A DNA stretch of 12,909 nt. It comes from Labilithrix sp. Lineage in GTDB: Bacteria; Myxococcota; Polyangia; Polyangiales; Polyangiaceae. Positions 1 through 12,707 of the stretch are shown one piece after another. Both the position numbers and the translations under genes were made by a program. The notes under the pieces were generated by a model. It was not told the DNA's origin. It saw nothing but the letters and a program-made list of their open reading frames with translations, and did no database searches. The stretch spans positions 1-12,909 of the forward strand of contig JAQBQL010000113.1 of assembly GCA_028287035.1 (NCBI GenBank). The letters are read 5' to 3'. Within the stretch, counting starts at the first letter, position 1. Each line of letters starts with the position of its first letter.

Positions 1-102
1 GGCGGCAACGGCACGACGCCCGCCGCGAGCGGCGGCGGCGGCAACGGCGCCAGCGGTCGAATCACGATGGCCTACCGCGGACCCCAGGCGGTGTTCACGT
101 GA
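1..102 (+). CDS. Phage tail protein, glycine-rich C-terminus (partial)
   Basis: The frame is open from base 1 and stops at 100-102, giving the last 33 residues of a protein that begins outside the window. The visible part is rich in Gly, Ala, Asn and Ser and ends in a short beta-strand-like tail (RITMAYRGPQAVFT). Glycine-rich C-termini of this style are common in phage tail and tail-fibre proteins. The next gene starts at a GTG overlapping this stop (GTGA), so the two are translationally coupled and probably both belong to the tail tip. The family cannot be named from so short a piece. Confidence 0.6.
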   Translation, partial: GGNGTTPAASGGGGNGASGRITMAYRGPQAVFT

Positions 103-1361
103 GCGCGCGCGCCGGGTGGCTGGCCCTGTTCGGGCCGGCGGTGCTCCGCAAGCTGGGGATCGACTACCCGCAGCGGCCGGTCCTCGAGTTCGCGGCGGGC
201 ACCGGCGCAACCGTGGACATCGTCGACGACGGCGTCGAGGCGGTGCGCGTCACGATCGGCGCGTCCGGCGGCGCAGCGCCGGCGGGCTCGGGCTTCGTGA
301 CCGTCACGTCCGGCGTGCAAAACTCTGCCGCCTCGCCCGCGGCGGCCGGCGTGCTCGCATTCCTCCAGACGCCGAGCTCGACGAACCTCCTCGCGGCCAT
401 GACCGACGAGACGGGCAGCGGCTCGCTCGCGTTCTCGGACTCCCCGAGCTTCGTCACGCCGCGGCTCTGGAACGGCGCGAAGACCTTCCGTTACACCTTC
501 GCCACCTCGGCGATCGCGGCCGATCGCGCCGTCACGCTTCCGGCGCTGACCGCCGATGATGTGTTCGTCTTCGCGGGCTTCGCGCAGACGCTCACGAACA
601 AGACGCTCAGTGCGTCGAGCAACACGATCACCGACACGAGCGCTGCCCTCGGCGACCTCCTGTACTTCAACGGCACGAAGTTCGTTCGCCTCGCGCGCGG
701 CACGACCGGCCAGGTCCTCACCGCGACGTCGACGACGATCCAGTGGGCGGCGGCCGCGGGCAGCGGCGGCCTCGGCACGAACGTCAGCAGCGGCGCGGGC
801 TACATCGCGATCGGCGCGGCGCCCGCGGCCGCTGGCGCGCTTCGACTCACGAACGCCGAGTACATCTACTCCAAGGACGGCGGAGCGAACGATCGCCAGC
901 TTCTGGGCCTCGACGCGTCGGGATACATCCAGATCGGCGCCGGCTTGATCCAGTGCGCGATCGGCCTCGACGACTTGATCCTCGGAACGCCCTTCGGGCA
1001 GATCCTCCGCGCGAGCACGGCCCAGGCCACCTTCGCCGTCCCGGTCGAGGGGAACCTCTACGGCGCGGTCGACGGAATGGCGACGATCGCGATCAGCTCC
1101 GCGAACATCACGCTCGTGCAGGCGCAGTACGGCACGCGCGTGCAGAAGTTCACGGGCGCGCCGGCTGCCGTCCGGACGATCACCTACCCGTTGCCGGCCG
1201 ACGATGCGCACTCGTACGTCCGCACGGTGTGGGTCAACACGACGACCGCGAACAGCATCACGTTCACGAACGGCGGCGGCGCGACGGTCGTCTTCGCTGG
1301 CAACACGAGCGTCGCGCACCAGCTCATCTTCACGCCCGCCGGCGTGTTCCAGGTCACCTGA
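99..1361 (+). CDS. Phage tail fibre-like protein
   Basis: A 420-residue protein beginning at a GTG that overlaps the preceding stop by four bases. It carries two kinds of segment that recur in phage tail fibres: at about 91-121 a TNLLAAMTDETGSGSLAF type repeat followed by SPSFVTP, and at about 165-217 the LTNKTL / NTI / GTTGQVLT series ending in WA. The C-terminal 80 residues are Thr/Asn/Gly rich and predicted beta, as expected for a trimeric distal domain. The likely role is a structural fibre or distal tail component that contacts the host surface; the receptor cannot be inferred. It sits directly before the lysis genes, a usual place for tail fibres. I see no chaperone or lysozyme domain. 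The assignment rests on repeat style and position, not on a catalytic motif. Confidence 0.8.
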   Translation: MSARAGWLALFGPAVLRKLGIDYPQRPVLEFAAGTGATVDIVDDGVEAVRVTIGASGGAAPAGSGFVTVTSGVQNSAASPAAAGVLAFLQTPSSTNLLAAMTDETGSGSLAFSDSPSFVTPRLWNGAKTFRYTFATSAIAADRAVTLPALTADDVFVFAGFAQTLTNKTLSASSNTITDTSAALGDLLYFNGTKFVRLARGTTGQVLTATSTTIQWAAAAGSGGLGTNVSSGAGYIAIGAAPAAAGALRLTNAEYIYSKDGGANDRQLLGLDASGYIQIGAGLIQCAIGLDDLILGTPFGQILRASTAQATFAVPVEGNLYGAVDGMATIAISSANITLVQAQYGTRVQKFTGAPAAVRTITYPLPADDAHSYVRTVWVNTTTANSITFTNGGGATVVFAGNTSVAHQLIFTPAGVFQVT

Positions 1362-2371: not shown

Positions 2372-2574
2372 TGATCCTCGGCGTCCTCTCCGTCGTAGTC
2401 GGCCTGACGCTCGCGGTTGCGCTGGCGATCGACTGGCGACGCCAGCGCGCGTTCGAGGCGAACCTCGAGATCGAACGGCTCGAGACGCAGCGCAGGCACG
2501 CCGAGGACGAGCTCCGTCGCCGCATGCGCGACAGCTTCTCCGAGTGGCCATTCCCCCCGAAGGGAGACCGGTGA
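2371..2574 (+). CDS. Small membrane/coiled-coil protein, candidate inner-membrane spanin (Rz-like)
   Basis: 67 residues. Residues 2-20 form one hydrophobic membrane segment, followed immediately by Asp-Trp-Arg-Arg and a charged helix (21-55) rich in Glu and Arg with heptad-like leucines. A short Pro-rich end follows. An N-terminal signal anchor with a periplasmic coiled coil is the hallmark of Rz-type i-spanins, which pair with an outer-membrane lipoprotein to fuse the membranes at the end of lysis of a Gram-negative host. The ATG overlaps the previous stop by one base, and the stop overlaps the endolysin start by one base. It is shorter than classical Rz (about 150 residues), so the spanin call rests on topology and position. 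Confidence 0.6.
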   Translation: MILGVLSVVVGLTLAVALAIDWRRQRAFEANLEIERLETQRRHAEDELRRRMRDSFSEWPFPPKGDR

Positions 2575-3377
2575 TGTACCCGCTCGGCCTGAAGAACTGG
2601 ATCGCGTTCACCGAGGGATTCGAGGGGGGCGTCTCGTGCCCCTACCTCGACATTCGTGGCAAGATGACGATCGCCTACGGGAACCTTGTCGACTCGCCTG
2701 GCGCGGTGTCTGGCTTGCCTCTCGTGCACCCCGACGGCCGGCTTGCGACGATCGCCGAGAAGGTCGCCATGTTCGAGCGCCTCACCGCCCCTGCCGTGGC
2801 GCCGCGGCTAGCTCACGACGGCTGGACGGCCGCAGCGAGGCTCACTGATCTGCGCCTCCCGCGCGCGGACATGATCGCGCTGGCGCTCGGCCGGCTCGCG
2901 TCGAACGAGGCGATCCTCCGGCAGCGGTTCCCGAGCTTCGACACGTACCCGCTCTGCGCACAGATGGCCCTGCACTCGCTCAGCTGGGCATGCGGCGCGG
3001 GCTTCGACTACCCCAAGCTCGAGGCGGCCGTGAGGGCGCGCGACTGGTACACCGCGTCCCTCGAGATCCACATGAAGGAGCGCACGCCCGAGGGGAAGCT
3101 GAACGCCGGCCTCGTCCCGCGCAACGTCGCGAACAAGGTGCTCATGCGCAACGCGGCGAAGGTGGAGGCGTTCGGCCTCGATCCCGAGACCCTCGAGTGG
3201 GTCGACGAGCTCTCCGTGAAGGACGTGCCCACCGTCCGAGACCTCAGCATCCACGACGAACCGACCAACCCGGGCACGCTGCCGAGCATCTACGCCGGCC
3301 GCGAGGAGGTCACGGGCAGCGGCGGTATCGTCCACCCCTGGCACTTCTACGACGAGCCGCCCGACGACGTGGCGTGA
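2574..3377 (+). CDS. Phage endolysin, T4-type lysozyme-like (GH24-like)
   Basis: 267 residues with no signal peptide, so export to the murein would depend on a holin. The N-terminal motif has Glu17 in FEGG, Tyr24, Asp26, then Gly29 and T-I-A-Y-G starting at Thr32. This matches the E-8-D-5-T spacing of the glycoside hydrolase 24 lysozymes (E11, D20, T26 in T4), with the following YG kept and the usual His replaced by Asn37. These enzymes cleave the beta-1,4 bond between MurNAc and GlcNAc. A central helical part, including SWACGAGFDYPKL and a VPRNVANKVLM segment, continues the lysozyme-like fold, where NxR-type residues often occur. The last 80 residues form an acidic C-terminal extension without an obvious wall-binding repeat. 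It is the final gene of the rightward operon. Wall-degrading function is fairly sure; the exact family is less so. Confidence 0.85.
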   Translation: MYPLGLKNWIAFTEGFEGGVSCPYLDIRGKMTIAYGNLVDSPGAVSGLPLVHPDGRLATIAEKVAMFERLTAPAVAPRLAHDGWTAAARLTDLRLPRADMIALALGRLASNEAILRQRFPSFDTYPLCAQMALHSLSWACGAGFDYPKLEAAVRARDWYTASLEIHMKERTPEGKLNAGLVPRNVANKVLMRNAAKVEAFGLDPETLEWVDELSVKDVPTVRDLSIHDEPTNPGTLPSIYAGREEVTGSGGIVHPWHFYDEPPDDVA

Positions 3378-3387
3378 CGCGCCCGAG

Positions 3388-3855
3388 CTACCGCGCGCAG
3401 ACGCCGTAGTGCAGACAGGACGCCTCGTCGGCGTCCGTCCAGATGAGCGTCGTCGGCACGATTCGATTCATCAGCCCCGGCTGCGCGGGGTCGATGTGAT
3501 CGAGGCCGAGCGCGTGGCCAAACTCGTGAGCTGCGATCTCCGCCACGCGCTCGGGCCGCTTGTCGGCGTCGATCCAGATGCGAAACTCGCCCTCGCTCGA
3601 GTCCCCGAGCTGCTTCGGCGGCAGCGGCGCCCTCACGATCTTCATTGCGCGTCGGTCGCTGTCGTCGGGCAGCTGGCCCCAGACGATCTCGGGCACCGGC
3701 TTGCCCGTGGCGGCGGTGATGAACGCAGCGCCGCGTGCGATGGCCGCGCGCTCCTCGAGCGAGAAGGCCTCGTCCCCGATGATGACGTCGCTCTCGCCGT
3801 GGGCGCATCCGAACAGCAGCGCCGCCACCACCAGAACAGCCAGCACTCGGCTCAT
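3388..3855 (-). CDS. Metzincin (matrixin-like) zinc metalloprotease lipoprotein, probable phage cargo gene
   Basis: 155 residues starting at ATG 3855. The start was chosen because it gives a normal lipoprotein signal: a short n-region, hydrophobic residues 4-15 and the lipobox L-F-G-C with Cys17. Longer upstream extensions place an implausible sequence before the signal. Residues 110-120 read HEFGHALGLDH, the metzincin zinc motif HExxHxxGxxH (His110, His114 and His120 as ligands, Glu111 as general base), and Met129 in GLMN fits the Met-turn. This is a minimal, propeptide-free catalytic domain, likely tethered to the inner face of the outer membrane or to the cell surface. The gene converges on the endolysin with 10 bases between stops and is not part of the late operon. 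It has its own divergent upstream region, typical of a lysogenically expressed moron. The substrate is unknown. Confidence 0.8.
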   Translation of the reverse strand: MSRVLAVLVVAALLFGCAHGESDVIIGDEAFSLEERAAIARGAAFITAATGKPVPEIVWGQLPDDSDRRAMKIVRAPLPPKQLGDSSEGEFRIWIDADKRPERVAEIAAHEFGHALGLDHIDPAQPGLMNRIVPTTLIWTDADEASCLHYGVCAR

Positions 3856-3915
3856 CCAGAAACCGTACGGCTGAGCGGCGGGCCCCGACATGGGTCGTCC
3901 GTGACAACCGTCAGT

Positions 3916-3940
3916 TCGGTCGCAGTTGGTATCCGACCGA
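3916..3940. promoter_or_regulatory. Inverted repeat in a divergent intergenic region, possible operator
   Basis: TCGGTCG at 3916-3922 and CGACCGA at 3934-3940 form a perfect 7-base inverted repeat around an 11-base spacer. It lies in the 150-base gap between the leftward metalloprotease gene (start 3855) and the rightward zinc-ribbon gene (start 4006). A dyad of this size between divergent starts could bind a dimeric regulator. No T-run follows on either strand, so it is not a classic terminator. In GC-rich DNA a 7-base dyad can occur by chance. Confidence 0.3.
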
Positions 3941-4005
3941 CGCAGATAGAGCACAACCGCCCGTACGCCCCAGGGAGGGCGTGGGCCGGGTGCTAGGGTT
4001 CCGCG

Positions 4006-4227
4006 GTGCTGCGCGAGACGAAGGGCACGTGGTCGGTCACCTGCGCTCGCTGCTACGCTGTCCAGCCGCTCGAGGCCGGGAGCCTGCTCGAGGCGCGTGA
4101 CGCCGCTCGTGGCGCGTCGTGGCTGGACCAGGCGCGCAAGGGGCAGCGGCTCGAGCGATGGGCGTGGCTCTGCCCGGCGTGCCGCCCGAGGCCGGCGGGC
4201 CCTGGCGTGATGGGCCCGTCGACCTAG
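4006..4227 (+). CDS. Zinc-ribbon mini-protein of phage origin
   Basis: 73 residues from a GTG. Two CxxC knuckles are present, C13-x-x-C16 (CARC) and C56-x-x-C59 (CPAC), separated by about 40 residues of an Ala/Leu/Glu/Arg-rich helix. This is the layout of a small treble-clef or ribbon zinc protein. Between the knuckles, the TWSVTCARCYAVQPLEAGS segment is typical of phage small zinc proteins that may bind nucleic acid or a host protein. It stands alone between divergent and convergent neighbours. Third-position bases are strongly G/C, supporting coding. The precise function is not recognised. The GTG has only a weak AGGGTT upstream, so a start a few codons later is possible. Confidence 0.6.
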   Translation: MLRETKGTWSVTCARCYAVQPLEAGSLLEARDAARGASWLDQARKGQRLERWAWLCPACRPRPAGPGVMGPST

Positions 4228-4325
4228 CAACCTGGCGCGCCGACCGGCCGACGAGCCTCGGGATGGTGCTCGAGGACCAGGCCGCGAACGACAACGATCA
4301 CCCGCCGACCGAGCGGATGCCAAGG

Positions 4326-4757
4326 TCAGGACGTCTCGCCGATGGCCTCGACGTTCTTGTGCGCGGTCAAGAACCCATCGCCCCACCCGTCGATCGCGAG
4401 GTGCACGGCGTCAGCCTCGGACCCCGTGCCGAGCCGCACGACGGTGGCCAGCGTGCCGGCGGGCATGCTCGGCCACAGTTCGTTGTGAACGATGCGGACG
4501 CGCGCGCCCGGCTTTAGGTCGCTCACGGGCGCCGGCCTCGCACTCTCGGACTCTGTTGCCCAGGCTCGCATCGCTCGGGCACACGTACGCGCCTCTTGGA
4601 CCTTGGCAGAGGGACCGTCGCGGAGCTCACGGAGGCGCGCCCATTCGTCGACGAGATCAGCCGCCATTGGATCGCGACCGAGAAGGACGAACATGGGCTC
4701 GTCGGGGTGGGCGTTCGCGTAGCAGTCGTAAGTGCCCGGCCTGTTCTTCGTTCCCAT
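4326..4757 (-). CDS. Conserved phage protein of unknown function (143 residues)
   Basis: The start at ATG 4757 is supported by an AAGGGAGA ribosome-binding sequence 6 bases upstream and by overlap with the preceding stop (TGATG). The N-terminal half holds a block with PGTYDCYANAHPDEPMFVL, then LLGRDP and a Leu/Asp/Trp/Ala helix, then a KVQEARTCARAMRAW helix. This combination recurs in phage proteins linked to replication or early genes in proteobacterial phages, mostly annotated as hypothetical. The C-terminal half (about 78-140) is predicted beta, with LKPGARVRIVHNELW, AGTLATVVRLG and AVHLAIDGWG. This resembles a small SH3-like or KOW-like barrel. It is the last gene of the leftward operon. 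The function is unknown. Confidence 0.75.
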   Translation of the reverse strand: MGTKNRPGTYDCYANAHPDEPMFVLLGRDPMAADLVDEWARLRELRDGPSAKVQEARTCARAMRAWATESESARPAPVSDLKPGARVRIVHNELWPSMPAGTLATVVRLGTGSEADAVHLAIDGWGDGFLTAHKNVEAIGETS

Positions 4758-4954
4758 CACGCGTCTCCCTTTGATGCGTCGCCCGGCGCGACTGATGGTG
4801 CCTGTCTTGCCGCGCGGCGAACGCGACAGATCTCGTGCGCCTGATTGAAGCGGCTCAGCTGCAGCTCCACCGCCGTCGACAAGTCGCTCTTCGCCGTCAC
4901 CGACGCGCCGCAACAGCAGGTGACGGTTGCTTCGGTACACATCCAAGCGCTCAT
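4757..4954 (-). CDS. Small Cys-rich phage protein (65 residues)
   Basis: ATG 4954 overlaps the upstream stop (ATGA) and the stop overlaps the next ATG by one base, so it is embedded in a tightly coupled operon. Cysteines lie at 6, 13, 14, 15 and 43, with a CCCG cluster near the N-terminus followed by a helix (LSTAVELQLSRFNQAHEICR) and a polar tail. The cluster could bind a metal together with Cys6 and Cys43, but no standard CxxC knuckle exists. No family is recognised. Coding is supported by the overlaps and third-position G/C. Confidence 0.65.
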   Translation of the reverse strand: MSAWMCTEATVTCCCGASVTAKSDLSTAVELQLSRFNQAHEICRVRRAARQAPSVAPGDASKGDA

Positions 4955-6117
4955 CGGTTGACGCCCTCGGAGGGCGCCAGCGTTCCCCGAGCTGCCGCGT
5001 CGATGGCGCCCGCCAGCGTGGCGCTCAGGTAATGGGAGCGCACGCCGCTCGCCGTCCCCCAGCTTGTCTCGCGCCGCGCGTCGAAGACGGACACCTCGAA
5101 CATGCCGACCTGGCGACCGATCGAGACCTCCGTGCATTTGCCGGCGGCGAGCAGCTGCCCGATCTGCGCGATCGCACGACCTGCCTCCTCGGCGGCCTTC
5201 ACGCGCTCGGAGAGCCAGCGTAGCCGCATCTTTCGCTCAGGGTCCTCGAACGCATCAACCAGGCGGAGCACGTCCGTCGACAGAGCGCTCGTCTCGTCCG
5301 AGGCGTTGGAAGAGGCCGGCGCGGGCAACGCATCGACGACCGCGAGCGCGGCGCGCAGCGACCCGTCGGTAACGCGCGCCATCTTGCGAAGCGTCGACTC
5401 GTGCGAGGCGCGTGCACTGGGGGTCGCGTCCCAGAGGCCGCCGGCGCGAGCCTGCTCAGCGCGAAGCAGTAGCCACGTGACCAGCTCCACGAGCGCCCCC
5501 TTCGCGTGCCGCTCGCCGACGAGCCGCATTGCTTCCGCGTACAGGTCGTGACGTCCCGAGCGCAGAGGGTGCGCCGCCTTGATCTCTTCGGCCTCGCTGA
5601 GCGACGCCGACGCAGTGACCGGCACGCGCGCGAAGTTCGGGTCAGCAATGAGGCGCGCCTCTTCCGCCTCCCTCGCGTCGTCGCGCTCCGCCGCCCGCAC
5701 GATCGCAGGGTCCACGTGCGAGCCCTCAGCCGTCTCCCGCGCGCGGATAGGCTCGGACTCGCTCTCGGCCCATACGAACTTGTTCGTGCGGTGTTTCGCG
5801 CAGAAGTACATCTGCTCGCCGTCCCGCTTTGCCACCTCGGCGGCGGTGAGCTGGAACACGACCGGCGAACGACCGCACGGCCATCCACCCTGGTCCTCGG
5901 CCTGGCACGTCGTCGAGCCCTCGGGTGAGGCGCGCTTCAGGCACGCCCGCCGGTCGTGGCACCGGAGCGGCTCGCCCATGAACGAGGACAGCAACTCGCC
6001 GCCCTCGCCCCCGACCGCCCCGCACAGTCCGCACCGCGGCGCCGGGGCAGCACCACCACCGCCGCCGCCCCACGCGATGATCTCGACCTCGATCGTCGCC
6101 TTCTTCTCGTTGCTCAT
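4951..6117 (-). CDS. Phage protein with N-terminal Cys-rich (zinc-binding) region
   Basis: 388 residues from ATG 6117, which overlaps the J-domain gene stop (ATGA) and has GAGAGGGG 5 bases upstream. After a short acidic/hydrophobic lead and a run of eight residues of Gly (17-22) and Ala, cysteines at 29/32 (CGLC) and 53/59 form one candidate zinc site. Cys71, Cys81, Cys106 and His109 form another, so the first 115 residues look like two small zinc modules. Residues 120-388 are helical and rich in Ala, Glu, Arg and Leu with no membrane segment. They include a region (SLSEAEEIKAAHPLRSGRHD) and a C-terminal segment that looks globular. It is the largest gene of the leftward operon. It may be a scaffold for nucleic acid or host-protein binding, but no enzyme motif is seen and the function is unknown. 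Confidence 0.75.
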   Translation of the reverse strand: MSNEKKATIEVEIIAWGGGGGGAAPAPRCGLCGAVGGEGGELLSSFMGEPLRCHDRRACLKRASPEGSTTCQAEDQGGWPCGRSPVVFQLTAAEVAKRDGEQMYFCAKHRTNKFVWAESESEPIRARETAEGSHVDPAIVRAAERDDAREAEEARLIADPNFARVPVTASASLSEAEEIKAAHPLRSGRHDLYAEAMRLVGERHAKGALVELVTWLLLRAEQARAGGLWDATPSARASHESTLRKMARVTDGSLRAALAVVDALPAPASSNASDETSALSTDVLRLVDAFEDPERKMRLRWLSERVKAAEEAGRAIAQIGQLLAAGKCTEVSIGRQVGMFEVSVFDARRETSWGTASGVRSHYLSATLAGAIDAAARGTLAPSEGVNR

Positions 6118-6737
6118 GCTCGCCCCTCTCGGCGCGCCGCATCGAACGCGCGGTTGATCTCGGCCATGCGGGCGTGATCGCCCCCGGCGTCCGGGTGGTG
6201 GATGCGCGCGAGCTCGCGGTATGCCTCGCGCACCGTGATCGCGTCCGCGGTCTCGGGGACGCCGAGCGCGTCCCACCACGCCGGCGCGGCGGTCGACTGC
6301 GGGAGCGCGGCGAAGCCGGTGAACGCCTGCTCGAGCATCGAGCTCGCGCCGTGACGCTGGATGGCACGCAGGGCCTCGACAGTGGCCCCGATGGCGCGCA
6401 GGTTCCAGCGGACCTTCCGGTACGTGTCGCACGCGATGACGAAGGGGCGCTTCGTGGTGTGTTGGGGCTCGTCCGGCGTGGGCGTCGGGATGGCGCGGTC
6501 GAAGTACACGGCCACGCCGCCGTCGTCGGGCTCGCGCCAGTTCGCGTACGGGAGACCGTCCTGCCGGAGCGGGATGTTCGTCGAGAGGACGACGCTCGTT
6601 CCGCCGAGGAGCTGGAGCGAGTGGAGGAGCTCGTCGCGGGCGCGTCCCAGGTCGACCTTGAAGTCGGCATCACGGCGGCGGCCTGGCGGCGTGCGCGGCT
6701 GGCCGGCGGGCCACGTGAGCGGGTAGCGCGCGATCAC
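6114..6737 (-). CDS. Phage J-domain (DnaJ-like) protein
   Basis: 207 residues. The GTG at 6737 is chosen because GGGAGG (6742-6747) lies 4 bases upstream and because this start overlaps the preceding stop (GTGA). A GTG at 6758 would add seven residues and has no such support. Residues 1-150 form an unassigned conserved domain (ARYPLTWP, LGGTSVVLSTNIPLR, GVAVYFDR, FVIACDTYRKVRWNLRAI, ALRAIQRHG). Residues 153-204 are a J-domain with His181-Pro182-Asp183 (HPD) between helices, the motif that stimulates Hsp70 ATPase activity. Such proteins with a C-terminal J-domain occur in many proteobacterial prophages. The probable role is recruitment of host DnaK, but the substrate domain is unknown. There is no Hsp70 gene nearby, so it would act on the host chaperone. 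Confidence 0.85.
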   Translation of the reverse strand: MIARYPLTWPAGQPRTPPGRRRDADFKVDLGRARDELLHSLQLLGGTSVVLSTNIPLRQDGLPYANWREPDDGGVAVYFDRAIPTPTPDEPQHTTKRPFVIACDTYRKVRWNLRAIGATVEALRAIQRHGASSMLEQAFTGFAALPQSTAAPAWWDALGVPETADAITVREAYRELARIHHPDAGGDHARMAEINRAFDAARREGRA

Positions 6738-6913
6738 GCGGCCTCCCGCGTGAGCCACCGGCGGGCCGCGGCGCGGAACGCTAGGACCTCGGGCGACCCA
6801 TTAGCAGCCCACCGTCCTGGCGGTTCTGCCACTTCCGCCGGCACTTCACCGGCATCCGGCAGGGATTGAAAATCCCCGTGTCCCTGGTTCGATTCCGGGA
6901 GTGGGCACTGCAT
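6734..6913 (-). CDS. Small ORF at the prophage edge, reading through the attachment site
   Basis: The frame ends at TGA 6734-6736, overlapping the J-domain start, and its last 22 codons have coding-like third positions (ANGSPEVLAFRAAARRWL and onward). That part is therefore probably a real leftward phage frame. Its 5' end is uncertain. An ATG at 6911-6913, with GGAG 8 bases upstream, would give 59 residues, but the first 18 would be an antisense reading of the tRNA-Phe fragment (PESNQGHGDFQ). Internal GTGs at 6844 and 6832 would give 36 or 32 residues. No family is recognised. Confidence 0.4.
   Translation of the reverse strand: MQCPLPESNQGHGDFQSLPDAGEVPAEVAEPPGRWAANGSPEVLAFRAAARRWLTREAA
6860..6908 (+). 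repeat. attR: 3' fragment of a tRNA-Phe gene
   Basis: The segment contains an anticodon arm with loop TTGAAAA (anticodon GAA, Phe) at 6866-6872, flanked by GGGA and TCCC. The variable loop GTGTC follows, then T arm CCTGG-TTCGATT-CCGGG at 6883-6899 and a 3' acceptor strand AGTGGGC at 6900-6906 with discriminator A6907. It closely resembles the 3' half of bacterial tRNA-Phe. No D arm or 5' half precedes it: the 20 bases upstream show no AGCTCAGT-like element. A phage integrating into the 3' end of a tRNA leaves the intact gene at one end and a 3' copy at the other. Orientation here (tRNA 3' end pointing to host DNA on the right) puts the intact gene left of the window. The exact core length cannot be set without attL. 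Confidence 0.85.
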
Positions 6914-6947
6914 CTGGCGCTCTCCGACGCGCCGTCTCAGGGCTCCC

Positions 6948-8618
6948 TCAAGGCTCCCGCAGCGCTCCCGCAGCGCCCGGGAGAGCCACTTCGCGAAGCC
7001 AGTCGACGCTTCGCGGCGCGTGGCGGCCGAAGATGCCGACGTCGTCGGACCCCAGCTGGCCGCGGTCGTTGCCACCCCAGCAGGTCGCGACGCCATCCCT
7101 GGACAAGCCGCAACCGTGCTCCTGGCCCAGCGCGAGCTCGGTCGTCCCGTCGAGCGCAACGAAATGCTCGGGGCGCGTCACGTCCCATGGCGTGGAGGCC
7201 GCCGCCGACTCGGCGAACTCGTTCGCGCCCCAGCAGAAGACGCCGCCCTTTGCCACGGCGCACGCGTGATCGCGGCCCAGTGAGAGCGCGAGAGCTTCCG
7301 CGACGCCGGGCACGACGACCGGGGCCGAGGCGGGGCCATAGCTGCTCCCGTCGCCGAGGTCGGCGTGATGGCCCAGACCGAAGCACGCGACCCGTCCGTC
7401 GGTGAGGATGGCGCATGTCTCGTCCGCGCCAGCGGCGATCGCACGCGCCGGCAAGGGGAACGCGATCGTCCGCGGAGAGAGCGTCGGTTCGCCGATTCCG
7501 GGTACGGTCCCCCAGCAGGACACCGCTCCGTTCTCGTTCCGTGCACACGAGTGCTCGACGCCCAGCGCGAGCTCGACGGCGCGCACCACACCGGCGAGCC
7601 GTCGCGGCGGTGCCCACGGCTCACGACCGCCGCTGCCGAGCTGGCCCGACGTGTTCGCGCCCCAGCAGATCACCGCCTTCGCGGAGTCGATCGCGCAGGT
7701 GTGGTGCGCGCCGGCCGCGATCGCCCGCAGAGGTCGCGCTGCCCGCACGCGAACGGGTTCGGCGCTTGGCAGGTTCGTTCCATCGCCGAGCGCGCCGTCA
7801 CGGTTGTCGCCCCAGCAGAGCGCTTCCTCCGCGCGGAGCGCACACGTGTGCATGCCGCCCGCGGTGACCTGGGTTGCACCCCGCAAGACGAGGCGCGGAC
7901 GAGCCACGGATCCCGCGGTCACCGCGGGCGCTACCTGCCCGAGGCCGTTGGCGCCCCAGCAAACGACGTCGCCTCCGGTCAGGACGCATACATGGCCGGC
8001 CTCGGGAAACGCACCGCCGCTCGCGATGGCCGCCGCGCGGAGCGGTTCCGCTGTCGAACCGCGAGGCGGCGGGTCCTCCGCCGCTGCGCGGATCGGGGCC
8101 GTGACGTCGGCGCGACGCCGGTAGACGTCGAGCGCGCTGCAGTCGAAGCCCGTCCACATGTGAATGTCGCGCGCCGGATCGGGCAGGTGCTCCGAGAACG
8201 CGTAGAGCCGATCGAGGTCGCGCCCGACCATGATCGCGTACTCGCCGAACGTGAGGCAGCTCGAGAGGATCATGTACTTCGCGTCGCCCGCGCGGAGGTA
8301 GTCGTAGAGACCGGGCGTCGGCACCCCGGCGCCGAGCGCGTCGAAGTACGCCAACGGGTGGAAGCTCGGTGAAGCGTGGCCGTTCCTGATCGCCAGGAAC
8401 GGGCTCGCTGGAAACACCACCCCCCCCGTCGAGCCTCGCGATCGACGCGTTGAGGGCACGAGCACGCTCGCGCCCGACCTCGTCGATGACGAGCGGGGCG
8501 GCGTCGGCGTGGGCGCGCGCGAGGAGGAGAGCGAGGAGCACGGGCGTGCCCACGCTCGCCAGGAGCGCTGGGGCATTGGCACGCGCCGCGGCATCGCCGC
8601 GCTGGAGCGCGCGGGCAA
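6948..8618 (-). CDS. RCC1-type seven-repeat propeller, C-terminal part of the frameshifted glycosyltransferase fusion
   Basis: The coding-like part runs from about 8427 to the stop at 6948; the stretch 8428-8618 is an out-of-frame shadow. The first 110 coding residues (VVFPASPFLAIRNG, LAYFDALGAGVPTPG, MILSSCLTFGEYAIM, then FDCSALDVYRR) look like the soluble end of the transferase. Next come seven repeats of the form C-x7-9-CWG or CFG, spaced 45-55 residues, each with two cysteines: about residues 208, 245, 296, 345, 395, 439 and 489 of this frame. Two repeats carry GQLG and others show GALGDG or DLGDG. Seven blades match the RCC1 beta-propeller. The paired cysteines suggest disulfides and an extracytoplasmic location. 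In bacteria such propellers are thought to be binding platforms; the partner is unknown. An independent start is unlikely, so it is either a pseudogene piece or expressed through slippage. Confidence 0.75.
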   Translation of the reverse strand: MPARSSAAMPRRVPMPQRSWRAWARPCSSLSSSRAPTPTPPRSSSTRSGASVLVPSTRRSRGSTGGVVFPASPFLAIRNGHASPSFHPLAYFDALGAGVPTPGLYDYLRAGDAKYMILSSCLTFGEYAIMVGRDLDRLYAFSEHLPDPARDIHMWTGFDCSALDVYRRRADVTAPIRAAAEDPPPRGSTAEPLRAAAIASGGAFPEAGHVCVLTGGDVVCWGANGLGQVAPAVTAGSVARPRLVLRGATQVTAGGMHTCALRAEEALCWGDNRDGALGDGTNLPSAEPVRVRAARPLRAIAAGAHHTCAIDSAKAVICWGANTSGQLGSGGREPWAPPRRLAGVVRAVELALGVEHSCARNENGAVSCWGTVPGIGEPTLSPRTIAFPLPARAIAAGADETCAILTDGRVACFGLGHHADLGDGSSYGPASAPVVVPGVAEALALSLGRDHACAVAKGGVFCWGANEFAESAAASTPWDVTRPEHFVALDGTTELALGQEHGCGLSRDGVATCWGGNDRGQLGSDDVGIFGRHAPRSVDWLREVALPGAAGALREP

Positions 8619-9648
8619 CCGCGCCCCCCACGATGAGCGTCACGGGCGCGGCGAACACGATGGCGTACATGAGATTGTTGACCCACGCCGTCGCCTTCGC
8701 GTACCCGATGACCGACGTCACGAGCGCGCAGACCAGCAGGCCCGTCCATAGCCCGACCTCCGCGCGCCAGGCGCGCTTCCAGGTGAGGACGAGGGCTCCG
8801 AGTGGCACGAGGATCATGAACGGCGCGAACGTGAAGAGGAGGGCCAAGGCCTCCTTCTCTCGTGCGGGATCCACGTGGTGCTTCGCGAGCATCGTCACCG
8901 TGTAGAAGGAGTATCGACCTCCGGTCACCCACTCGAGGACGCCGTAGGTCGCGATGGCGAGGACGGCCGTCGCCACGCAGAACGAGACGCCGCGCCGACG
9001 GTCCCGCAGCAGCACGAACAGGCAGATCCACGCCGCGAAGAACGCCGTGCTCTGTTTCGTGAAGACCGCTGCCGTGAGGAGCAATGCGCCCGCCATGATG
9101 CCGCGCGCGCGGAACGGACCACGCGCCACCACGGCCGCGGCGCCCGTGACGAACGCAACCGCGAGGGAGTCGACGCGAACGAGGTCGTAACAATAGCCAG
9201 CGAGCGGATAGCCCGCGACGATCCAGCCGAGGGCGAGCGGGACGGCGGCGTAGCGGAGGATGTGCCCTTGCCAGTGCCGCCAGACCGCCCAGCCGAGCAC
9301 GGACATCGCGACGGCGAGCGAGAGCAGCGAGAGAAGGCGGCCGCTCCAGTAATCGAGGGTTCCGAGCTTCTCCAGGGCAGCGAGGACGGCGAAGTGGACA
9401 GGTGCGTACGGGAACGGCAGAAAGCCCCGATCGGGCGCGCCGTAGAGGGGCTGGCCGTGCGCGACGCGATAGCCCATGTAGAGGACGCCGCCCTCCATCC
9501 ACTCGATGTCCATCGGGTACGCGAGGCGCGACGAGACCACGCGCAGGAACCCCACGAACTGATCGATCGCCGGCAGGAGGAGGATCGCGACGCCCGCGAG
9601 GTGCCACCACCGCTTGCTCGCCCGGAAGTGCGTCGCCTTCTCACTCAT
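7798..9648 (-). CDS. Membrane glycosyltransferase-like protein (GT-C/GT39-like), frameshifted
   Basis: From ATG 9648 the frame encodes about 405 meaningful residues and then, after the G8 run at 8420-8427, continues out of frame as a low-complexity Arg-rich tail to 7798. The N-terminal part has about ten hydrophobic segments. The first loop after membrane segment 1 (16-38) carries acidic residues Asp47, Glu49 and Glu52 (MDIEWMEGG) with YAPVHF shortly after, as in GT-C fold transferases of the ArnT/GT39 style that use polyprenyl-phosphate sugars. If the G run had seven bases, the frame would continue into the segment at 8420-6948, giving a single protein of about 899 residues with a C-terminal RCC1 propeller. 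Its neighbour, a PAP2-like phosphatase 76 bases upstream, fits a polyprenyl-phosphate theme. The donor and acceptor are unknown. Confidence 0.75.
   Translation of the reverse strand: MSEKATHFRASKRWWHLAGVAILLLPAIDQFVGFLRVVSSRLAYPMDIEWMEGGVLYMGYRVAHGQPLYGAPDRGFLPFPYAPVHFAVLAALEKLGTLDYWSGRLLSLLSLAVAMSVLGWAVWRHWQGHILRYAAVPLALGWIVAGYPLAGYCYDLVRVDSLAVAFVTGAAAVVARGPFRARGIMAGALLLTAAVFTKQSTAFFAAWICLFVLLRDRRRGVSFCVATAVLAIATYGVLEWVTGGRYSFYTVTMLAKHHVDPAREKEALALLFTFAPFMILVPLGALVLTWKRAWRAEVGLWTGLLVCALVTSVIGYAKATAWVNNLMYAIVFAAPVTLIVGGAVARALQRGDAAARANAPALLASVGTPVLLALLLARAHADAAPLVIDEVGRERARALNASIARLDGGGGVSSEPVPGDQERPRFTELPPVGVLRRARRRGADARSLRLPPRGRREVHDPLELPHVRRVRDHGRARPRSALRVLGAPARSGARHSHVDGLRLQRARRLPASRRRHGPDPRSGGGPAASRFDSGTAPRGGHRERRCVSRGRPCMRPDRRRRRLLGRQRPRAGSARGDRGIRGSSAPRLAGCNPGHRGRHAHVCAPRGGSALLGRQP
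8420..8427. repeat. Homopolymer C8/G8 at the frameshift
   Basis: Eight consecutive C on the plus strand (G on the coding strand) sit exactly where the transferase frame passes to the RCC1 frame. Seven or ten G would join the frames; eight gives the present break. Such runs are hot spots for both sequencing error and replication slippage. Confidence 0.85.
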
Positions 9649-9724: not shown

Positions 9725-10696
9725 TCACTGCATGACGCCCACGAGGGTGACGCCGCCGCCGCCATCGGCGCTGCCCATGGGCACGACGCGCAGGTTCGTG
9801 TCGTGGAGCGCCGGCATCGCGATGCCGACGCCTGCGCCGGCGAGACCGCCGAAGATCACGTCGGTCGGGAAGTGGCCGCCCGACATCACGCGGCCGGTGC
9901 CCACGACCGCGGAGCCGGCGACGCCGCCGATCAGCGTGACGAGCGCGAGCCCGGGACGCCCCAGCTTCTGCAGGGTGCGCGCGGACGCGACGGTGACCGC
10001 CATCGCATTCGCGGTGTGCCCGCTGAAGAACGATCGGGCGGCGTTGGAGTCGTTGCGCTCGTCGAGCGGCGCGCCGTTGTTGTAGACGCGCGGCCGGGGG
10101 CGCGCGATCGCGTAGCTGAGCGACACCTGGAGAGCGCTGATCATGAGCGCGCTCTCCGCGATGACGACCTCGTCCTGCACGCCGTTCCAGAAGCTCTTGT
10201 CGCCGATGCCCTCGGCGAGCAGCACGACGAGCGGCGGGAGCGCGACGGTCGCGGCGGTCGCGATGTCGCCGACCTGACCCCAGGCCGTCGAGTAATTGCC
10301 GGCCGACGGGCGATCGAGCGCGTTGATCTTGGACCGATCGCAGTTCGGCACGCACGCCGGGCCCGACCCGCTCTCGTCCAGGAAGAGGAACCCGCTCGTC
10401 GCGGCGGCGCCGATGAGGAAGATCGGGACGTCGAGCTCCCAGCTCAGCCGGTACGCCGGCTTGGGCCGCGAAGACGCGGCGTACGACGGCGGCGGCGGCG
10501 CGACGAGCGGCGCCGGGTCGACGGGCGGCGCGTACGAAGACGGCGGCGCGGACGCAGGAGCCGCGGAAGGATCGGCGGTCGCCGGCGCGGGCTGCTCCAC
10601 CTGCGCATGCGCGGACGACGACGAGAACGAGAGGAGCAGGGCGGCGAGCGTCGGCAAGACGGCTCGCGTAGCCCGCGTGAGCAGCGGGGACGGCAT
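9725..10696 (-). CDS. PAP2-superfamily phosphatase, secreted/periplasmic
   Basis: 323 residues from ATG 10696, chosen over a GTG at 10726 because it begins directly with a signal peptide (basic residues, hydrophobic 13-24, AHA|Q cleavage near 31). Residues 32-78 are a Pro/Ala/Ser linker. The PAP2 signature is present but not standard: RPRP at 199-202 lacks the lysine of KxxxxxxRP, SGH at 225-227 has Phe-Ser where Pro-Ser is usual (FFSGH), and GR269-x5-H275-x3-D279 has Gly for Ser. The phosphate-binding arginines and both histidines remain, so activity is likely. PAP2 enzymes dephosphorylate lipid phosphates such as undecaprenyl pyrophosphate or phosphatidate. The co-directional GT-C-like gene downstream suggests a polyprenyl carrier role. 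The C-terminus (280-323) is Gly-rich. Confidence 0.85.
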   Translation of the reverse strand: MPSPLLTRATRAVLPTLAALLLSFSSSSAHAQVEQPAPATADPSAAPASAPPSSYAPPVDPAPLVAPPPPSYAASSRPKPAYRLSWELDVPIFLIGAAATSGFLFLDESGSGPACVPNCDRSKINALDRPSAGNYSTAWGQVGDIATAATVALPPLVVLLAEGIGDKSFWNGVQDEVVIAESALMISALQVSLSYAIARPRPRVYNNGAPLDERNDSNAARSFFSGHTANAMAVTVASARTLQKLGRPGLALVTLIGGVAGSAVVGTGRVMSGGHFPTDVIFGGLAGAGVGIAMPALHDTNLRVVPMGSADGGGGVTLVGVMQ

Positions 10697-10974
10697 CGCG
10701 GCGCGCACGTGCAAGCCGGGTTCCACGTCGTGAGCCGCGGGCGTTCGGGCGCTCTCGAGGGAATGCGCGGAGCCTGCTGCACGCGCGCGCGGTGGCGGCC
10801 CGCCGCGCGTATTCCCCGTCCCCCGGTCAGGATGGCGAAGAGCGCCACGGTCGCGTGCGGGAATGGCTCCTTCGCCACAGCGGCGGCCCGTGTTTCGTCG
10901 CGAGCGGTCGTCACGCGACGCGCGACATGCGACTGCGTCGTCCTCGCCGCGCGACTCGCGGTAGGCTCCGCCCG
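10697..10974. promoter_or_regulatory. Divergent intergenic region, 278 bases
   Basis: No gene is supported here. It should hold the promoters of the leftward PAP2 gene and the rightward outer-membrane-like/sigma-factor operon. GGGAAT occurs at 10759-10764 and 10859-10864 and its complement ATTCCC at 10811-10816, at roughly 50-base intervals. GGAA-type elements are common -35 boxes of ECF sigma factors, and an ECF gene lies in the downstream operon, so autoregulation is possible. A matching -10 cannot be assigned. Confidence 0.35.
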
Positions 10975-11991
10975 ATGACGAGGCGACGTCGGCGCGCTGG
11001 CGCCCGCACGAGCAAGTGGCTCGCAGTGGGCGCGTCCCTCGTCGCGCTCCTCATCGCGCGCCGCGCCGGTGCGGCGCCGACCGTCCGGCTCCACGTGGCT
11101 GCCGAGAGCACGTGCGAGGGAACGGCGGCGATCGCCTCGCGCCTCGCGGCTCGCGGCGTCACCGTCGGCGACGACGACGGCGCGTTCGACGTGGACGTCA
11201 CCGCGATCAGCGCCGGCGCCGACGCGCCCGCCACCGCCACGCTCATCCTCCGCCGCGGCTCGCGCACGGCGACCCGTACGCTGAGCGCGCCGACCTGCGA
11301 CGAGGTCCTCGAGGCGTCCGCCTTCACGCTGGCCCTCGCCCTCGAGCAGCCGCTCGACGCACCAGCGCCTCCGCCGGCCGCGTCACCTCCGACCGCCGCC
11401 TCACCTCCGACCGCCGCCTCACCTCCGCCGGCCGCGTCACCTCCTTCACCAGCCTCACCTCCCGGGCCTCCTCTCACCCTGGGAGCATCGGCGGGCTTCG
11501 GTCTCTTCGCCGGAGCGTCGCGGGCGGTGGCTCCCGCGCTGGCTGGCCGCGTCGATGTCGGCTCGGAGCGGCCGCGCCTCCTCGCGCCGTCGGCGAGCCT
11601 CGGCATCCTCGTCGTGCTGCCCACGACGACCCGTGCCGCGGACGCGGACGTCGGCTTCGCGATGCAGGCGGGCTTCGTCGATGGCTGCCCGGTGCGCCTG
11701 GCGATCGGCGCGCGCCTCACGCTGCGCCCGTGCCTCGAGCTCCAGGTCGGCCGGCTGCAGAGCCGCGCCTCGGGCATCGTCGGAGGACGCCTCCAGTCCT
11801 CCACCTGGGCGGCGCTCGCGATCGCCGGCCGTCAGCGCGTCGAGCTGGGGTACGGCATCGGGCTCGAGGCGGTCGTCGTCGCTGGATCTCCGCTGATCCA
11901 GGATGACATCTTCGTCGGGGCGTCCCGGGTGCTCGGCGTCGGTCCGCTGCTCTTCTCGGCGACGGCCGGCGCCGGCGTGCACTTTCGGTGA
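10975..11991 (+). CDS. Secreted/outer-membrane-like protein with Pro/Ala linker, linked to ECF sigma factor
   Basis: 338 residues from ATG 10975. Six arginines in the first 12 residues precede a hydrophobic segment (16-28) and an AGA|AP-type cleavage site near 33. Residues 35-120 form a small domain with Cys47 (ESTCEGTAAIASRLAARGV) and a second Cys in a PTCDEVLEASAFTLALAL motif, a pair seen in Myxococcota secreted proteins next to sigma factors. Residues 125-165 are a Pro/Ala linker encoded by 18-base tandem repeats. The C-terminal 170 residues alternate hydrophobic and polar residues with many Gly and end in a terminal aromatic/basic pair (VHFR), suggesting a beta-barrel. The stop overlaps the sigma gene start (GTGA). 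The role is unknown; sensing or envelope function is inferred. Confidence 0.65.
   Translation: MTRRRRRAGARTSKWLAVGASLVALLIARRAGAAPTVRLHVAAESTCEGTAAIASRLAARGVTVGDDDGAFDVDVTAISAGADAPATATLILRRGSRTATRTLSAPTCDEVLEASAFTLALALEQPLDAPAPPPAASPPTAASPPTAASPPPAASPPSPASPPGPPLTLGASAGFGLFAGASRAVAPALAGRVDVGSERPRLLAPSASLGILVVLPTTTRAADADVGFAMQAGFVDGCPVRLAIGARLTLRPCLELQVGRLQSRASGIVGGRLQSSTWAALAIAGRQRVELGYGIGLEAVVVAGSPLIQDDIFVGASRVLGVGPLLFSATAGAGVHFR
11365..11472 (+). repeat. 18-base tandem repeats encoding a Pro/Ala linker
   Basis: About six 18-base units, the clearest TCACCTCCGACCGCCGCC at 11383-11400 and 11401-11418 (identical), then more diverged copies at 11419, 11437 and 11455, and a degenerate one at 11365. 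They encode SPPTAA-like hexapeptides. The unit is in frame, so copy-number change would alter linker length without frameshift. Confidence 0.85.
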
Positions 11992-12707
11992 TCGCGATTA
12001 CGCTCGCCGGACACAGCCCTTCGCCAGCCATCGTGTCCCAGGCCTCGATCCCCCTTCTCCCGCTCGACTACGACCGCGCGCACGACCGCGCGGAGAGGCC
12101 GGATCATGCGGAGCGCTTCGACCTCGGTCCGGATGGCGACGAGGGAGAGGACGACGCCCGGACGACCCCGGGCGGGAGCCAGGTCGCTGCCTATCCGAGC
12201 GACGCGGGCCGCCTCCGCCGGCTCGTGGACGACGAGCACGGGTTCGTGTGGCGTTCGATCCGCCGGCTCGGCGTGCGCGAGAGCGACGTCGACGACGGGG
12301 TGCAGAAGGTCTTCCTCGTGGCCGCCCAGCGGCTCGCCACGTTTCCGCCCGGCCGCGAGCGCGCCTTTCTCTTCGCCACGTGCATGCGCGTCGCGGCCAA
12401 CGAGCGCCGGGGCGAGTCACGCCGGCGGAGCGCGGGAGCGGAGGCCCTCGAGGGTCTGCGGTCGCACGGTCCGAGCCCCGAGCAGCACGCGTCGGACCGG
12501 CACCTGCTCGACCGGCTGCTCGAGCCGCTCCCGCTCGAGCTCCGCAGCGTTCTCGTGCTCTTCGAGCTCGAGGGGATGACCGGCGACGAGATCGGCGAGC
12601 TGCTCGATCTGCCGGTCGGCACCGTGGCGTCGCGGCTGCGTCGTGGCCGGGAGCTCGCGACCGCGGCGGCCAAGCGGCTTCGTGCCAGTGAAGGAGGCGA
12701 GCGATGA
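11988..12707 (+). CDS. ECF-type RNA polymerase sigma factor
   Basis: Up to 239 residues from a GTG overlapping the preceding stop by four bases. Region 2 lies at about 78-145 (LVDDEHGFVWRSIRRLG, then ESDVDDGVQKVFLVAAQRL, and the DNA-melting part with FLFATCMRVAANERR). Region 4 lies at about 175-225 (LPLELRSVLVLFELEGMTGDEIGELLDLPVGTVASRLRRG), the helix-turn-helix for the -35 element. There is no region 3, as in ECF factors. The first 70 residues are an acidic, low-complexity extension, longer than usual, so a later start is possible, for example the GTG at 12033. The stop overlaps the next ATG (ATGA). Translational coupling to an envelope-type protein upstream and a small protein downstream suggests a cell-surface signalling unit. 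Confidence 0.9.
   Translation: MIAITLAGHSPSPAIVSQASIPLLPLDYDRAHDRAERPDHAERFDLGPDGDEGEDDARTTPGGSQVAAYPSDAGRLRRLVDDEHGFVWRSIRRLGVRESDVDDGVQKVFLVAAQRLATFPPGRERAFLFATCMRVAANERRGESRRRSAGAEALEGLRSHGPSPEQHASDRHLLDRLLEPLPLELRSVLVLFELEGMTGDEIGELLDLPVGTVASRLRRGRELATAAAKRLRASEGGER

Follow-up and report, generated by a model that had tools for sequence, protein, structure and literature searches.

The 12,909-nucleotide stretch of DNA analysed here (the window) contains, on its forward strand, the 3′ part of a tRNA-Phe gene with the anticodon GAA, which stands without a recognisable 5′ half exactly between phage-type genes on its left and chromosome-type genes on its right. We consider it probable (roughly 0.83) that this fragment is the displaced attR of a prophage inserted in the tRNA-Phe gene of the host. 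On this reading, the fragment would fix the right-hand boundary of a prophage that otherwise bears no label, in a probable Polyangia host, a class whose phages are, as an impression rather than a count, little sampled. The features of the window are listed in Table 1.

Table 1. Features of the window on both sides of the tRNA-Phe fragment
Feature	Positions	Strand	Basis
ORF of putative function, called "tail" by the sequence-only reading	99-1361	+	No Pfam or PHROG match
GH24 phage-type lysozyme (endolysin)	2574-3377	+	Homologue names; Pfam and PHROG weak
ORF with weak M10 (matrixin) match	3388-4386	-	Pfam, 22.1 bits (cut-off 24)
ORF on the phage side	4951-6432	-	ORF call; no Pfam or PHROG match
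Phage J-domain protein, C-terminal DnaJ domain	6114-6758	-	PHROG_9210; Pfam DnaJ above cut-off
tRNA-Phe (GAA) 3′ fragment, proposed attR	6862-6907	+	tRNA positions 28-73
RCC1-repeat ORF, host side	6948-8618	-	Pfam
Hydrophobic ORF, host side, glycosyltransferase-like by eye	8358-9648 (ORF 7798-9648)	-	No Pfam match
PAP2-superfamily protein, host side	9725-10726	-	Family match
ECF-type sigma factor, host side	11988-12707	+	Family match

The tRNA-Phe fragment

The fragment was read in register with an intact tRNA-Phe that ARAGORN called on an IMG/VR contig (L002), and it comprises the anticodon arm from position 28 with the loop TTGAAAA, the variable loop, the T arm with TTCGATT, the 3′ acceptor strand and the discriminator A. 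The two sequences are identical at 43 of 46 bases, against a mean of 24.7 and a maximum of 28 in 200 dinucleotide shuffles of the window. All three mismatches lie in the 3′ acceptor strand (AGTGGGC in the window, TTCGGGC in L002), where differences are expected because the hosts are not the same. In this register the match stops to the left of 6862, and A73 is followed by CTGC, not by CCA. The Rfam tRNA model RF00005 also matches the fragment over model positions 27-71 of 71, cut off at the 5′ end, with 25.5 bits (E = 6e-4) when 6862-6930 is scanned alone, a score below the gathering score of 29; the match was listed neither in the scan of the whole window nor in that of 6700-7050. Among E. 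coli genomes, the stretch falls on an annotated tRNA-Phe in each of the best five of 5379 matching records. Folding the fragment by itself is uninformative (z = 0.26, with an equal or better fold in 118 of 200 shuffles). Both the alignment and the Rfam match bear out the sequence-only reading, which had recognised a tRNA-Phe 3′ half with GAA anticodon loop, T arm and acceptor strand; its limits of 6860-6908, by contrast, were two bases too wide on the left and one on the right.

In other sequences, the acceptor strand of the fragment did not recur in a tRNA-Phe 3′ half, either in IMG/VR or in 40 genomes of the phylum of genome G001, which is probably not the phylum of the host. A 60-base stretch compared with phage records matched 266 of them at E ≤ 10, and the top matches among the best 15, at 89%, came from Salmonella and E. 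coli, where the site is either annotated as tRNA-Phe or not annotated; none of the 15 pointed to the identity of the phage.

Missing 5′ half and second copy

No complete tRNA, tRNA-Phe included, was detected in the window by ARAGORN. When the 27 bases that form the 5′ part of the L002 tRNA-Phe are compared with both strands of the window, at most 18 of 27 agree, a value within the level of 200 shuffles (mean 17.1, maximum 20). A D-arm pattern gave a single match with three mismatches at 604-620, and at least one such match occurred in 23 of 200 shuffles; a strongly divergent 5′ half could escape both searches. The 3′ tRNA fragment stands, as the earlier reading had it and as would be expected of an attR, without a convincing 5′ half on either strand. 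Since no such half was found, a split, intron-interrupted or permuted tRNA-Phe was rejected, subject to the same caveat about a strongly divergent 5′ half. A repeat search revealed no second att copy in the window, nor was one present among the repeat families of the window.

Gene content on the two sides

The firmest phage-type gene on the left is that of the J-domain protein, which is separated from the tRNA fragment by 103 bases and matches PHROG_9210 with E = 2.3e-47. In tblastn, 50 of 50,697 phage records match the protein, none of them reaching 60% identity, and it has relatives in six IMG/VR loci. The neighbouring ORF 4951-6432 overlaps the J-domain gene in another frame with its upstream part, and its real start is therefore probably later. 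For the lysozyme, the Pfam Phage_lysozyme match is below the cut-off and that to the PHROG_7 endolysin family is weak (E = 4e-4, scanned from 2349), and of the 83 homologous proteins (that of the window included) 11 have a source name, eight being "GH24 family phage-related lysozyme", two "hypothetical protein" and the last a hypothetical protein of a Gemmatimonadaceae MAG. Among phage records, a single one matches the lysozyme (34%), and no relative was found in IMG/VR.

The remaining ORFs on this side are unassigned. Among the 57 listed proteins related to ORF 99-1361 (its own included), none is named tail; one relative (P0249) carries PF13884, which we take to be a chaperone domain of tail spikes, in an alignment that covers 10% of the query. 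Two further PHROG matches, at 1384-1971 (E = 0.0054) and 4006-4224 (E = 0.0092), are weak, concern families of unknown function and were left aside. No DNA match of the window was found among phage records, and no integrase match among the left-side ORFs scanned against Pfam and PHROGs, in the approximately 6.8 kb of the element that are visible.

On the right side, the stop of the RCC1-repeat ORF lies 40 bases beyond the fragment. The RCC1 family was detected neither in genome G001 nor in 14 control genomes, which makes its absence from G001 uninformative; PF01743 was found in 10 of these 14, none of the ten being a myxobacterium. The hydrophobic protein has one relative, 38% identical and encoded in an Acidobacteria MAG, in a seeded scan of 84,980 species genomes. 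Approximately 820 bases are shared, in different frames, by the RCC1 and hydrophobic ORFs. By eye, the RCC1 ORF begins as if it continued the hydrophobic protein, and a frameshift or sequencing error may lie where the two overlap. For the ECF-type sigma factor, 2191 relatives were obtained, and the five with organism names among the best 120 belong to Pendulispora, Sorangium, two Polyangiaceae MAGs and a Deltaproteobacteria MAG, which makes a Polyangia host probable. Within ORF 10792-11991, positions 11368-11462 form a tandem repeat of 18-base period.

The fragment separates phage genes (J-domain protein and lysozyme) from host genes (RCC1, PAP2 and ECF sigma factor), in agreement with the change of gene content that the sequence-only reading had placed here. 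Its J-domain and lysis genes are likewise supported by the family and homologue data; the tail gene that it had also named is not supported by Pfam or PHROGs, and at most slightly by the homologues. The G+C content is similar on both sides (0.68-0.73 left, 0.70-0.76 right) and discriminates little.

Relatives of the J-domain gene

In two of the six IMG/VR loci (L003 and L007), the surroundings of the J-domain gene include a tRNA or tRNA-like sequence, other than tRNA-Phe, together with an integrase or integrase-like ORF. The J-domain protein of L003 is 68% identical to that of the window, and the next gene encodes a tyrosine integrase (PHROG_1, E = 2.9e-40). Inside the frame of this integrase, on the opposite strand (4489-4522, minus), lies a tRNA-like 3′ half, whose Rfam tRNA score is weak (E = 3.8). 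It matches 212 phage records at E ≤ 10; the best eight of them include two SSV1 records with an annotated integration site at this place (34 bases, 91%, E = 2e-4), three with an integrase and three with neither. L007 has its J-domain gene at 9998-10585, followed by an ORF that is integrase-like by eye (11087-12205) and by an intact tRNA-His. The fetched parts of the other four loci gave no match to the integrases of L003 and L007, the only queries used; one of the six (L008) has a tRNA-Asn approximately 9 kb from the J-domain gene. The tRNA-Phe core, searched as an exact pattern, is absent from the fetched parts of all six loci. A tentative and rather doubtful interpretation is that these loci represent a little-described lineage of temperate phages, with a Polyangia host in the present case, which carries the PHROG_9210 J-domain gene beside its integration module and may have switched from one tRNA site to another (tRNA-Phe in the window, a tRNA-Arg-like site in L003 and tRNA-His in L007).

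Origin of the fragment

Under the favoured explanation, a temperate phage would have been inserted by a tyrosine integrase into the tRNA-Phe gene of the host, and the strands would probably have crossed over within or close to the anticodon arm. The attP of the phage would have carried a copy of the 3′ part of the tRNA, so that the tRNA-Phe would be restored at the far left end (attL, beyond this sequence) and the original 3′ part pushed to the right end, now 6862-6907. Several observations argue for an attR: the 3′ fragment reaches the discriminator with no complete tRNA in the window, the J-domain gene beside it belongs to PHROG_9210, the lysozyme homologues are of phage type, the right side carries RCC1, PAP2 and ECF sigma genes, and in L003 and L007 the J-domain gene has both a tRNA (or tRNA-like sequence) and an integrase (or integrase-like ORF) nearby. 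The signature described in the part of the Islander report drawn on here (PMC4383910) also matches. Against it count the lack of an attL, an integrase or a second copy of the fragment in the window, the lack of the tRNA-Phe core in L003 and L007 (exact pattern, fetched parts), the weak or missing family matches of the left ORFs other than the J-domain gene, the lack of a DNA match in phage records and of an IMG/VR relative of the lysozyme, the failure to find the same acceptor strand in IMG/VR or the 40 genomes, and the missing CCA.

Alternatively, the fragment could be the end scar of something other than an intact phage: a degraded prophage, a satellite or other integrative island that has some phage genes, or a single element within a tandem array at tRNA-Phe. 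The left side has few firm phage families, no integrase is present among the scanned ORFs, and the ORF that weakly resembles M10 might be cargo; however, a stretch of 4.2 kb holds both the J-domain gene and the phage-type lysozyme, and only approximately 6.8 kb of the element are visible, so that missing genes mean little, which makes this origin unlikely. An assembly chimera, in which a short tRNA repeat led to the fusion of phage and host pieces that are not neighbours, appears highly improbable: the record seems to be a single short contig (12,909 bases) that very likely ends with the window, and tRNA ends are repeated sequences, but the common stretch comprises only about 46 bases and the G+C content is alike on both sides, although the latter discriminates little. 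An attR of a prophage, which is presumably a whole phage, remains the preferred reading.

Comparison with known systems

The scar itself is ordinary, and integration of this kind is well described in the part of the Islander report considered here (PMC4383910). According to that part, the attP of elements in tRNA genes carries the 3′ part of the tRNA, the gene being restored at one end and the displaced 3′ part left at the other; a 3′ fragment was found in 3760 of 3919 islands, and the site was anticodon-centred in 2083. In the window, the phage-like genes likewise border on a displaced 3′ tRNA fragment, which reaches from the anticodon arm to the 3′ end, as fits the anticodon-centred class, whereas the window sequence contains neither the intact tRNA nor the integrase that accompany elements of that type.

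The L002 contig, which is enterobacterial by our reading, shares 38 identical tRNA-Phe bases with the window and has an intact tRNA-Phe and an integrase-like ORF on the same contig, but different genes surround its tRNA-Phe; the common site may simply reflect the conservation of tRNA-Phe. In L002, the tRNA-Phe 3′ end occurs twice together with a terminator-like stretch (8341-8387 and 8501-8547, one base differing), which looks like an old scar following the intact gene.

In the sections used here of the report on Myxococcus phage Mx8 (PMC6070905), this phage is temperate, has a myxobacterial host and integrates site-specifically, as is proposed for the element in the window, which differs in that no integrase is next to its fragment; this is a likeness of features, not a tested kinship. 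Integrase frames that extend across attP are described for Mx8 and SSV in the same part of the Islander report (PMC4383910), and for Mx8 also in those sections (PMC6070905), and L003, with its att-like sequence inside the integrase frame, resembles Mx8 in this respect.
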